Shown here one piece after another: positions 31,454 through 35,193 of a DNA stretch of 64,000 nucleotides. A program made the translations under genes and the position numbers. The notes under the pieces are model-generated. The model did not search any database, was not told the origin of the DNA, and worked only from the letters and a program-made list of their open reading frames with translations. The first letter of the stretch is position 1, and each line of letters starts with the position of its first letter. This DNA is from Asticcacaulis sp. SL142 (GTDB taxonomy: Bacteria; Pseudomonadota; Alphaproteobacteria; Caulobacterales; Caulobacteraceae), in the NCBI RefSeq assembly GCF_026625745.1, contig NZ_CP113061.1, forward strand, positions 2,257,501 through 2,321,500, written 5' to 3'.

Positions 31454-33076
31454 CTACACCATCGTTGCGGCGATGTCTTCAACCACCGATTTGACCAGCT
31501 TTTCATCATCACCTTCGGCCATGACGCGGATCAGAGGCTCAGTGCCGCTGGGACGCACCAGCACCCGGCCGGAGCCTTTGAGGGCGGCTTCACCGGCGGC
31601 AATGGCTTTTTTGACGACATCCTTTTCCATCGGATTTTCGCCTGAGAAGCGGACATTTTTCAGCAACTGCGGTACGGTATCGAACTGCTTGCCTAGCTCA
31701 CTCATCGGCTTGTCGGATTCGACCAGCACGGCCAGTACCTGCAAGGCCGCCATCAGGCCGTCGCCGGTCGTGGCATAGTCGCTCATGATAATGTGGCCGG
31801 ACTGTTCGCCGCCCAGATTAAAGCCGCCTTCGCGCATCCGCTCCATAACATAGCGGTCACCGACCTTGGTGCGCTCTAAACTCTGACCGTTTGACTGCAT
31901 CAGGCGCTCTAAGCCTAGGTTCGACATGACCGTCGCCACCAGCCCGCCGCCGCGCAGCAGACCCTTTTTCGCCCAGGCCGCCGCAATGATCGCCATGATC
32001 TGATCGCCGTCGATGACCTGACCTTTTTCGTCGCAGATCACCAGGCGGTCGGCATCACCATCGAGCGCAATCCCGATATCGGCGCGGTAGGTTTTGACGG
32101 CCTCGGCCATGGTCTGCGGATAGGTCGAGCCGCACTTATTGTTGATATTCAGGCCATCCGGCGACACCCCGATCGGAAACACTTCGGCGCCCAGTTCATA
32201 GAGCGCCAGTGGGGCCACCTTATAGGCCGCACCGTTGGCGCAATCGATGACGATGCGCATCCCTTTCAGGCGCAGATGGCGCGGAAACGACGCCTTGGTG
32301 ATCTCAACATAGCGCGACTGAGCGTCATCGACACGCACCACCCGCCCAAGCTGATGGGGTTCCGCCACGCCGTCCAGAATATTGCCATCCATGCGGGCCT
32401 CAATCGCCAGTTCAACCTCATCGGACAGCTTATAGCCGTCCGGCCCGAACAGCTTGATGCCATTATCGGCGAAGGCGTTATGGGATGCTGAGATCATCAC
32501 CCCCAGATCGGCGCGCATCGAGCGCGTCATCATCGCCACCCCCGGCGTTGGCAGAGGCCCGAACAGGCGCACGTCCATGCCGACCGAGGTAAAGCCCGCC
32601 ACCAGCGCCGGCTCAATCATATAGCCCGACAGGCGCGTGTCTTTGCCGATGACCACCAGATGGCGGCGATCGTCCGACGACATAAACATCTTGCCCGCCG
32701 CCATACCCACACGGTAGGCGACTTCGGCGGTCATGGGGAAGGTATTGGCGCGGCCACGGATACCATCGGTGCCGAAATATTTGCGGGTCTTGTTAAGGCT
32801 GGTCATGTGCGAGGCCAATTCTTCGTTTTTGGATTTGATCGGGTTAAAGCCGTAGAGCGTGAGCGCCGAGCGATAGTCGTTGATTTTCTGGGTCGCCAGC
32901 GTCACAAACGCCGCTTCCATCTTATCGACCGTTTCAGGACGCGGGGACTTGGTTTGGCCGTTAAGGGCGCGAAAGATGCTCGATTGCGCCACACCGGCGG
33001 CATCGGCCACATCCTTGATCGAAATGCCGGACGCGCCTAAAGCACTTAGCAATCTTTCCCACTTAGGTTCGCTCAT
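31454..33076 (-). CDS. glmM: Phosphoglucosamine mutase with an N-terminal helix-turn-helix domain
   Basis: Converts glucosamine-6-phosphate to glucosamine-1-phosphate for UDP-GlcNAc synthesis. The GlmM part starts at residue 91 ([21 protein letters not shown]) and shows the catalytic serine loop ([20 protein letters not shown]), the metal loop [14 protein letters not shown], the sugar loop EQSGHIIM, and the phosphate loop [12 protein letters not shown]. Residues 1-90 are extra: they read as an HTH domain ([39 protein letters not shown]) plus a linker. No stop or strong ribosome-binding site separates the parts, though ATG 32806 could give a normal-length GlmM. The gene is divergent from glmS. 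Confidence 0.95.
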
Positions 33077-33351
33077 CTAAAGGCTCCACAGCGTTTGTGC
33101 ACGTAATTTACAGCGCACGCATGACAATTGCAACAAAATCCAAATATTTTGCAAATTATTCATTGCGTAGATAAAATATAATCGCACAAAAATGTAAGCA
33201 TAAAATAAAAAATCTTTGTTATTCAGCTTAATGACCTCGGTTTCAGAAACTTTCTGTCACAGGGATTTATGGCGAAACTCATTTTTGTGTGCTAATAAAA
33301 AATCGCATATTCGCGCTACAGGTATAAAAATTTAACCCGGAGACCTCTCAT
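33077..33351. promoter_or_regulatory. AT-rich divergent promoter region between glmM and glmS
   Basis: 275 bases, far more AT-rich than the flanking genes, that must contain both promoters. It holds a near-perfect inverted pair of 12-mers, CGCACAAAAATG at 33183-33194 and CATTTTTGTGTG at 33280-33291 (one mismatch), and a related half-site TTTGTGC at 33094-33100. Two TTGCAA palindromes flank an AT-rich core near 33127-33155. These are candidate operators, perhaps for the HTH domain of the adjacent GlmM. No glmS ribozyme-like structure was recognised. Confidence 0.55.
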
Positions 33352-35193
33352 ATGTGCGGCATTATTGGCATTATCGGCAAATCTGAGGCCGCCCCGCGCC
33401 TGCTGGAATCCCTGCGCCGCCTTGAATATCGCGGCTATGACTCGGCGGGTATTGCAGTTGTCACGCCAAACGGAACCCAGCGCCGCCGCGCCGAGGGTAA
33501 GATCAAAAACCTTGAAGCCGTCATTGCGGATGACCCCATCACCGGTACGGTCGGCATCGGCCACACGCGCTGGGCCACCCACGGCGCGCCGAGTGTGCGC
33601 AATGCTCACCCGCATACGTCAGGTGCTGTGACCTTGGTGCACAATGGCATTATCGAAAATTTTGCGGAACTTAAAACTGAACTGATCACGGCGGGCCATG
33701 AATTTACCTCCGATACCGATACCGAAGTCATCGCCCATCTGCTTGATGCCACGCTGAAAACCGGCGTATCGATCAAGGACGGCTTCAAAGCGGTGCTCGG
33801 CCGTCTGCACGGCGCCTATGCGCTGGCGATCCTGATTGACGGCGAAAATGAGCTGATGCTTGGCGCGCGGCGTGGATCGCCTTTGGTTATTGGCTGGGGC
33901 GAGGGCGAGATGTTCTTGGGGTCTGACGCTCTGGCCGTCGGCCCGTTTACCAGTCGCGTCACCTACCTCGAAGAAGGCGACTGGGTCATCGTCACCCGCA
34001 CTGACGCCGAAGTGTTTGACCACAAAGGCTTTCGCGTCAACCGCCCCGCCACCACGGTTCCGGCGTCGGCGGCTTTGGTCGAAAAAGGTGCGTTCCGGCA
34101 CTTCATGGAAAAGGAAGTCCATGAACAGCCCGAAAGCTGCCAGCGCACCCTGTCGGCCTATCTCGATCCGGTCGGCAAATCCGTGCGCGCCGATATCAAG
34201 GCCAGCCTCGACTTCAAAGACATCACCCGCCTGCAAATCATCGCCTGCGGCACCGCCTATTATGCCGGCTGCATCGCCAAATATGCCTTTGAGAAAATCG
34301 CAGGACTGCCGGTCGATGTCGAAGTGGCCTCTGAGTTTCGCTACCGCACCCCGGCCATGACGGCAGGCTCTCTCGCCATGGCGGTATCGCAATCGGGCGA
34401 GACGGCGGATACCTTAGCGGCGCTACGCTGGTGCGCCGGTGAGGGGCTTAAAACCGCAGCGCTGGTGAACGTCCATACCTCGACCATGGCGCGTGAGGCC
34501 GATATCCTGTGGCCAACCCATGCCGGGCCGGAAATCGGCGTCGCCTCGACCAAGGCGTTTACGGCGCAATTGTCGGCCCTGCTGTCGTTGGTGGTCTGCG
34601 CCGCCGTTCAGCGTGGTAAGATCAATGCGGCTCAGGAAGCTCACTATGTGCAGTTACTGTTGGAGACCCCCGGTCTGATCTCGCATGCTTTGGTGATGGA
34701 TTCGGAACTGTCCAAGGTCGCGGCCATTGACCTGTCGAAATCAAGCGATGTCATTTATCTGGGGCGCGGGGCTATGTTCCCGCTGGCGCTGGAAGGCGCG
34801 CTCAAGCTCAAGGAAATCTCCTACATCCATGCCGAAGGTTACGCGGCCGGTGAGCTGAAACACGGCCCGATCGCGCTGATTGACGAAAAAACCCCGGTCG
34901 TGGTCATCGCCCCCGACGATGAACTGTTTGAAAAGACCGCCTCCAACGTGCAGGAAGTCGCCGCCCGTGGTGGCCGCGTCATCATGATCACCTGCGTGCC
35001 GGAAAAAGTCCCTGCCCTGTCCGGCGATGCGGCTAAGTCTTTGAAAATCATCAAGGGCCCAGCCTGCGATCCGTTCATCGCCCCGATCATCTATTCGGTA
35101 CCGATCCAGCTTCTGGCCTACCACACTGCCGTCCACAAAGGCACCGATGTTGACCAACCGCGCAATCTGGCCAAATCCGTGACGGTGGAGTAG
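33352..35193 (+). CDS. glmS: Glutamine-fructose-6-phosphate aminotransferase (isomerizing)
   Basis: First committed step to UDP-GlcNAc: makes glucosamine-6-phosphate from fructose-6-phosphate and glutamine. 613 residues. Seen: Cys2 as the N-terminal nucleophile after Met removal (MCGIIGIIG), GHTRWATHGAPS and the glutaminase fold; two SIS domains with IACGTAYYAG, VSQSGETADTLAALR and LGRGAMFPLALEGALKLKEISY; and the C-terminal DQPRNLAKSVTVE. AACCCGGAG ahead of the ATG is the ribosome-binding site. Divergent from HTH-GlmM, the enzyme of the next step. Confidence 0.98.
   Translation: MCGIIGIIGKSEAAPRLLESLRRLEYRGYDSAGIAVVTPNGTQRRRAEGKIKNLEAVIADDPITGTVGIGHTRWATHGAPSVRNAHPHTSGAVTLVHNGIIENFAELKTELITAGHEFTSDTDTEVIAHLLDATLKTGVSIKDGFKAVLGRLHGAYALAILIDGENELMLGARRGSPLVIGWGEGEMFLGSDALAVGPFTSRVTYLEEGDWVIVTRTDAEVFDHKGFRVNRPATTVPASAALVEKGAFRHFMEKEVHEQPESCQRTLSAYLDPVGKSVRADIKASLDFKDITRLQIIACGTAYYAGCIAKYAFEKIAGLPVDVEVASEFRYRTPAMTAGSLAMAVSQSGETADTLAALRWCAGEGLKTAALVNVHTSTMAREADILWPTHAGPEIGVASTKAFTAQLSALLSLVVCAAVQRGKINAAQEAHYVQLLLETPGLISHALVMDSELSKVAAIDLSKSSDVIYLGRGAMFPLALEGALKLKEISYIHAEGYAAGELKHGPIALIDEKTPVVVIAPDDELFEKTASNVQEVAARGGRVIMITCVPEKVPALSGDAAKSLKIIKGPACDPFIAPIIYSVPIQLLAYHTAVHKGTDVDQPRNLAKSVTVE

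Follow-up and report, generated by a model that had tools for sequence, protein, structure and literature searches.

We report here that the phosphoglucosamine mutase GlmM of Asticcacaulis carries an N-terminal helix-turn-helix (HTH) head in a fusion that is real and conserved, and that palindromic elements in the spacer between its gene and the divergent glmS gene accompany the fusion and are lacking where it is absent. From these sequence comparisons, we consider it reasonably likely that HTH-GlmM is an autoregulatory trigger enzyme whose XRE/Cro-like head would bind the glmS/glmM spacer, probably repressing glmS. With slightly less assurance, we propose that GlmM serves in this one genus as a single-target transcription factor for two steps, its own (glmM) and the one before it (glmS), and that this role, along with its operator, has been gained or lost on more than one occasion.

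A GlmM with an N-terminal extension faces glmS

The window analyzed, to which all positions refer, is a 64,000-nucleotide stretch of the Asticcacaulis sp. SL142 genome. The fusion gene lies at positions 31454 to 33076 on the minus strand, and a Shine-Dalgarno-like GGAG (33084 to 33087, minus strand) is found 7 nt 5′ of its ATG at 33076. The single frame of 540 codons (540 amino acids) and the complete GlmM described in the earlier note were both confirmed. The GlmM part (31457 to 32806, minus strand) contains four PGM_PMM Pfam domains, and residues 101 to 538 match the TIGR01455 (glmM) profile with 611.4 bits against a curated cutoff of 447.55, covering profile positions 1 to 439 of 442. This full-length match places the protein in the family and predicts phosphoglucosamine mutase activity. 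The ISASHN loop (residues 195 to 200; 32477 to 32494, minus strand) is invariant from I195 to N200 across 11 aligned rows; we take its SASHN to be the active-site serine loop. A search of the genome indicates that the fusion is its single GlmM, as the next match is only 27% identical, over residues 123 to 475.

On the other side of the spacer is glmS (33352 to 35193, plus strand), which encodes the preceding pathway step and is the proposed target. The divergent arrangement and the AT-rich spacer noted earlier held up, at 275 bp and 65% A+T. A divergent glmS is found upstream in 19/19 fused loci and 9/11 unfused loci.

The head matches an XRE/Cro-like helix-turn-helix

Comparison of the 90-residue domain with HTH profiles, which the earlier note had proposed, gave a match to Pfam HTH_3 (PF01381) over residues 15 to 57 (32906 to 33034, minus strand), with an E value of 1.1e-7 and 32.2 bits when the first 90 residues were searched alone. 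With the whole protein the score was 28 bits against a gathering cutoff of 23, so the head belongs to the HTH_3, or XRE-like, family. The Pfam LacI model was also considered and was rejected, scoring 22.4 bits against a cutoff of 27. In the predicted structure of residues 1 to 95 (mean pLDDT, 83; 94 over residues 11 to 30), helices span residues 5 to 16, 20 to 27, 31 to 38, and 47 to 74, with an extra, low-confidence helix at 79 to 94. The first 90 residues had been described as resembling an HTH; that description stands for approximately residues 5 to 60, and the remainder is better read as a mostly helical linker. This linker (residues 61 to 90; 32807 to 32896, minus strand) is predicted with low confidence past residue 80, has one fixed length in 19 rows, and has a mean dN/dS of 0.285. 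Within the recognition-helix region, A30, S32, S33, F35, R36, A37, and G40 are invariant in 10 aligned rows.

A fold search of the PDB with the head model returned no match at an E value of 0.001 or better. The top row by E value was HNF-1A (E value, 0.16; probability, 0.66; root mean square deviation [rmsd], 11), and weak matches were seen to 3qq6, 6jq1, and 2cro (E value, 0.17 to 0.28; probability, 0.94 to 0.98; rmsd, 2.1 to 2.4; 51 to 54 columns).

The fusion is seen in one genus

We surveyed 199 genomes of the family, 25 of them in the genus Asticcacaulis and 174 in other genera. An extension in line with GlmM is present in 19 of the 25 Asticcacaulis genomes, with 63 to 100% identity over 90 residues. 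One of these 19, G153, is counted as fused for the extension and spacer and omitted from the coding-sequence counts and trees, which include 18 fused genomes; in this metagenome-assembled genome the GlmM match stops at residue 358 although the frame stays open for 725 codons, which probably reflects a frameshift or a fault in the assembly. The extension has no match in six members of the genus, five of which (G052, G080, G085, G124, and G149) have a complete, unfused GlmM. The sixth, G141, was left out of the unfused count because contig ends cut both glmM and glmS. In G080, glmM and glmS lie approximately 430 kb apart on one contig.

The earlier note had suggested looking for the fusion in other Caulobacterales, and among the 174 family genomes from other genera none was found, with GlmM itself detected in 171 of them (E value, 1e-100). 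Weak matches to the head in seven of these genomes fall in open frames of 359 to 399 amino acids, too short to be fusions. Searching genome contigs recovered 11 loci with the extension and the start of GlmM, all titled Asticcacaulis, along with 10 further weak HTH matches elsewhere. When 385 genomes of the class were searched with an N-terminal profile at an E value of 1e-8, only the SL142 genome matched. Across a phylum sample of 398 genomes, GlmM was found in 393. We then considered 16 long GlmM frames (12 of length at least 520 among the phylum matches listed and 4 longer ones from the family) and read the upstream frames for all 16; Pfam detected no HTH in the 10 that were scanned. As for the origin of the head, phage sequences gave no match and plasmids gave 54 weak ones (best 20 of 54 at an E value of 1e-2 and 41% identity, some annotated as LacI family). 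As far as seen in these samples, the fusion appears confined to one genus.

The extension is protein-coding and in frame with GlmM

The earlier note had raised the concern that homologs might lack the domain through a bad start call. The codon in question, ATG 91 (32804 to 32806, minus strand), sits where unfused GlmM starts and is ATG in 18 of 18 genes examined, which is what one would expect if the true GlmM began there and the extension were an artifact. The comparative evidence runs the other way. All 90 residues are present in each of the 19 fused genomes, and the length of the extension is identical in all 19 aligned rows. Of 19 fused genes, 11 have a Shine-Dalgarno-like word (GGAG, GAGG, or AGGA) 5′ of the first ATG; 5′ of ATG 91, such a word is found in 1 of 18. 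Among nine representatives (36 pairs), mean dN/dS was 0.14 for residues 1 to 60, 0.29 for residues 61 to 90, and 0.18 for residues 1 to 90, compared to 0.11 for GlmM residues 98 to 530 and 0.93 for the joint at residues 91 to 97; these ratios are only rough because mean dS is approximately 0.9 to 1.2. In ten closer pairs, dN is likewise far below dS over residues 1 to 90. On these comparisons, the 90-residue extension is protein-coding and under purifying selection. Because the extension has a fixed length in 19 genomes, a dN/dS of 0.18, and Shine-Dalgarno-like words favoring the first ATG, we reject a wrong start call, to which we assign almost no probability. A second, shorter GlmM product may also be made from ATG 91, which is not preceded by a conserved Shine-Dalgarno-like word.

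Palindromic spacer elements accompany the fusion

An alignment of 19 fused and 4 unfused spacers suggested shared dyads. The proposed operator near glmS, O1 (TGCGATTTTTTATTAGCA; 33290 to 33307, minus strand), is present with exact spacing in 19/19 fused spacers. The dyad TGC-N12-GCA occurs in 8/8 lineage representatives, and no dyad was common to all 8 in 40 dinucleotide shuffles. Together with a third piece with conserved letters (TCGCCATAAA here, mostly TTGCTATAAA or ATGCTATGAA in other genomes; 33266 to 33275, minus strand), O1 forms a composite site, TGC-N10-TAGCA-N15-YGCYA. The composite is found in all 19 fused spacers, a count that is in-sample because the pattern was chosen from those spacers, and in 8/8 lineages compared to 0 of 500 shuffles. 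Since shuffles take no account of shared descent, the identity of the flanks among the 8 lineages (31.5%) serves as the comparison for descent. At letters not fixed by the pattern, identity was 54% in O1 and 71% in the third piece, compared to 43% between the two; over all letters, fixed ones included, it was 74% and 79%, respectively.

Genome-wide, every fused genome (19/19) contains exactly one match to the composite pattern, always in the glmS/fusion spacer, and the pattern is absent from the locus in 5/5 resolved unfused members of the genus. The third piece differs in the four unfused members with the divergent pair. Three of the genomes without the fusion (G052, G085, and G124) have one composite match each, away from glmM, and the other three (G080, G141, and G149) have none. 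The matches in G085, G124, and G052 (loci L081, L087, and L089) fall on a TTAGCACTC...GAGTGCTA element, which in our judgment resembles CIRCE. A backward control pattern has, by our count, 17 matches in 12 of the 25 genus genomes, so the number of matches is not unusual in itself and only their position is informative. Among the 174 genomes of other genera, the composite matched in 9 and the control in approximately 28; seven of the nine had glmM coordinates listed (all but G045 and G070), and in these seven the match was not at glmM.

A second proposed operator, O2 (CGCAATGAATAATTTGCA; 33150 to 33167, minus strand), lies 73 bp 5′ of the fusion ATG. Its pattern, GCNAT-N6-WTTGC, is found 36 to 73 bp 5′ of the fusion ATG in 17/19 fused spacers and in 0/4 unfused spacers, and in 7 of 8 lineages compared to a mean of 0.09 and a maximum of 1 in 500 shuffles. 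The two spacers missing O2, L036 and L037, are the shortest of the fused ones (185 and 184 bp) and keep the composite site. The centers of O1 and O2 are 129 to 182 bp apart.

Two minor observations concern these searches. By eye, O1 letters and recognition-helix residues shift together between two groups of fused genomes, a change on one branch to which we give no weight here. At L198, L203, and L214, a TGCAATCNNCNGATTGCA palindrome beside an A-run, possibly a terminator, lies shortly 3′ of a long frame, which Pfam identifies as MutL in L203, and a similar match occurs in G133.

Promoter signals and other readings of the spacer

The TAGCA at one end of O1 is also found in 3/4 unfused genus spacers (the fourth has TATCA) and at 4/5 other-genus loci, at varying distances from glmS, and by this comparison is older than the fusion. 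Its sequence on the glmS strand is GCTA, and Caulobacter housekeeping promoters have a GCTA-like −10 element; the box is probably the −10 of the glmS promoter. O1 would then be a putative operator grown over that promoter. The elements seen with the fusion alone are O2, the third piece, and the TGC arm of O1. A scan of positions 32700 to 33500 for sigma-70-like promoters gave four matches at 33121 to 33177, all on the plus strand in the direction of glmS, with 1.0 expected from shuffles, and none in the direction of the fusion. Two of the four overlap O2 (33148 to 33177), and the glmS promoter may therefore sit elsewhere than O1. An RNA element was also sought between 32700 and 33700; the single Rfam match (E value, 0.93) scored 14.1 bits, below the gathering score of 40, and was taken as chance.

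These signals, with a box kept outside the fused genomes and every sigma-70-like match pointing toward glmS, are what would be seen if the conserved elements were core promoter boxes or the site of another regulator, the HTH having some other role or target. We regard this as improbable, though it deserves more weight than the other alternatives: the four unfused Asticcacaulis genomes that share the divergent arrangement have neither the TGC arm nor the third piece nor O2, and the composite site is restricted to this spacer in every fused genome, which would not be expected of a general promoter or of a site for a broadly acting regulator. A different possibility is that the extension is a module for protein-protein contact, localization, or stability that has kept the HTH fold without binding DNA. 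GlmM does act by protein contact in Bacillus, where it inhibits the cyclase CdaA (passages of PMC8573169), and our full-length structure model (pLDDT of only 39) neither places the head on the dimer nor says anything about DNA binding. The invariance of the recognition-helix residues in 10 rows and the palindromes that accompany the head make this quite unlikely.

It is more doubtful still that HTH-GlmM acts in trans on other genes, with the glmS/glmM spacer being incidental. A relaxed 18-base pattern, TGCRAT-N6-WTWGCA, gave 36 matches in 9 fused genomes compared to 12 for the backward control, matched the spacer in 7 of the 9 (not in G014 or G109), and has 2 further matches in the SL142 genome. 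Of those two, one coincides with the apparent start codon of a small frame and the other falls within an MFS-type gene; further matches to the relaxed pattern were the palindromes 3′ of mutL. Paired matches within 200 bp were seen at the glmS spacer alone (4/9 genomes).

A possible mechanism for HTH-GlmM

A trigger enzyme carries a DNA-binding domain in the same polypeptide, has an operator at its own gene or at another gene of the pathway, and binds DNA to control transcription in dependence on its substrate or product. In HTH-GlmM, the domain is seen as a profile match and a candidate operator is present in the spacer; DNA binding, transcription control, and its dependence on a ligand are predicted. 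The idea in the earlier note of an enzyme that binds DNA and adjusts glmM and glmS gains independent comparative support, in that the elements are in all 19 fused spacers, absent at the locus in the 5 resolved unfused genomes, and, as the composite, nowhere else in fused genomes. Because a DNA-binding head goes with a matching conserved site between its gene and glmS, the enzyme probably helps to set its own supply.

In Bacillus, the GlmM dimer is held by contacts between domains 1 (passages of PMC8573169). Given a dimer joined in this way, heads adjoining domain 1 could offer two HTHs to the TGC-N12-GCA palindromes. HTH-GlmM bound at O1 would repress glmS because O1 overlaps TAGCA, the probable −10, and binding at O2 would control transcription of the fusion itself (autoregulation). 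Occupancy of GlmM by its substrate or intermediate might alter its affinity for DNA, such that the supply of amino-sugar phosphates would feed back on glmS and glmM. This ligand signal is guessed from what PutA and BirA do.

Relation to known systems

In bacteria for which the control is known, a ribozyme, small RNAs, or separate repressors govern the entry of sugars into the precursors of peptidoglycan and lipopolysaccharide. GlmM binding to the glmS/glmM spacer, if true, would add another solution, in which a single protein senses, catalyzes, and regulates. The DNA-binding domain of PutA is a ribbon-helix-helix, and the head of BirA is a winged HTH. Escherichia coli PutA likewise is an enzyme with a DNA-binding domain, and its only binding target, according to passages of PMC8249747, is the putA/putP spacer, which separates putA from a divergent gene of the pathway; the enzyme and pathway are different, and DNA binding by HTH-GlmM is predicted. 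Feedback by amino sugars through HTH-GlmM would parallel the action of proline through PutA. BirA, a group II biotin protein ligase, is also an enzyme with control over its own pathway and a DNA-binding head at the N terminus, and group I ligases do not have this head (PMC4016012). BirA is a ligase, whereas HTH-GlmM has an XRE/Cro-like HTH on a phosphosugar mutase and is seen in one genus. The Bacillus GlmM that inhibits CdaA shares with it a second, regulatory role, but the inhibition is protein-protein, and that GlmM is unfused and has no DNA-binding part (passages of PMC8573169). The XRE/Cro (HTH_3) repressors SinR, DdrO, and 434 Cro resemble the head in fold, with weak PDB matches (E value, 0.17 to 0.28), but are separate regulators with no enzyme part.

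No HTH-GlmM appeared among the papers listed when an open-access library was searched. Passages of PMC8249747 name five E. coli trigger enzymes, of which GlmM is not one, and in those of a paper on Caulobacter peptidoglycan recycling (PMC13046382) it is mentioned once, in a table, with no such regulation described. The kind of mechanism is already known; the enzyme and the record of gain or loss inside one genus are apparently new. Since fused and unfused species share one genus, the effect of the head is open to study by comparing or exchanging natural forms.

The fusion and the composite site changed state together

We constructed a species tree of 28 genomes, including 18 fused ones, from two marker proteins, which we take to be PheT and a PbpC-like protein. 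The marker tree rejects a single clade for the 18 fused genomes (AU P value, 9e-6), as does a tree with GlmM and GlmS added (AU P value, 4e-5). Two changes of state are forced by well-supported branches and three occur on the best trees; a tree of GlmM only also gives three, with weaker support. Because the species tree rejects a single fused clade, the fusion and the site changed together more than once, and whichever history holds, each change took in the composite site as well as the fusion.

Plain counting of changes gives no preference for one gain with losses over repeated gains by transfer. We favor an early gain followed by losses as the reading of these sequences because all fused lineages share one junction, one linker length, and one operator and because of how GlmM starts in one unfused genome, G149 (L046). 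There the protein begins MSATPNQRKYF, spaced as the fused proteins are after Met 91, and the other unfused GlmM proteins read start with MSTRKYF, MSQRKYF, or similar, four residues shorter. The start in G149 is possibly a scar of HTH loss.
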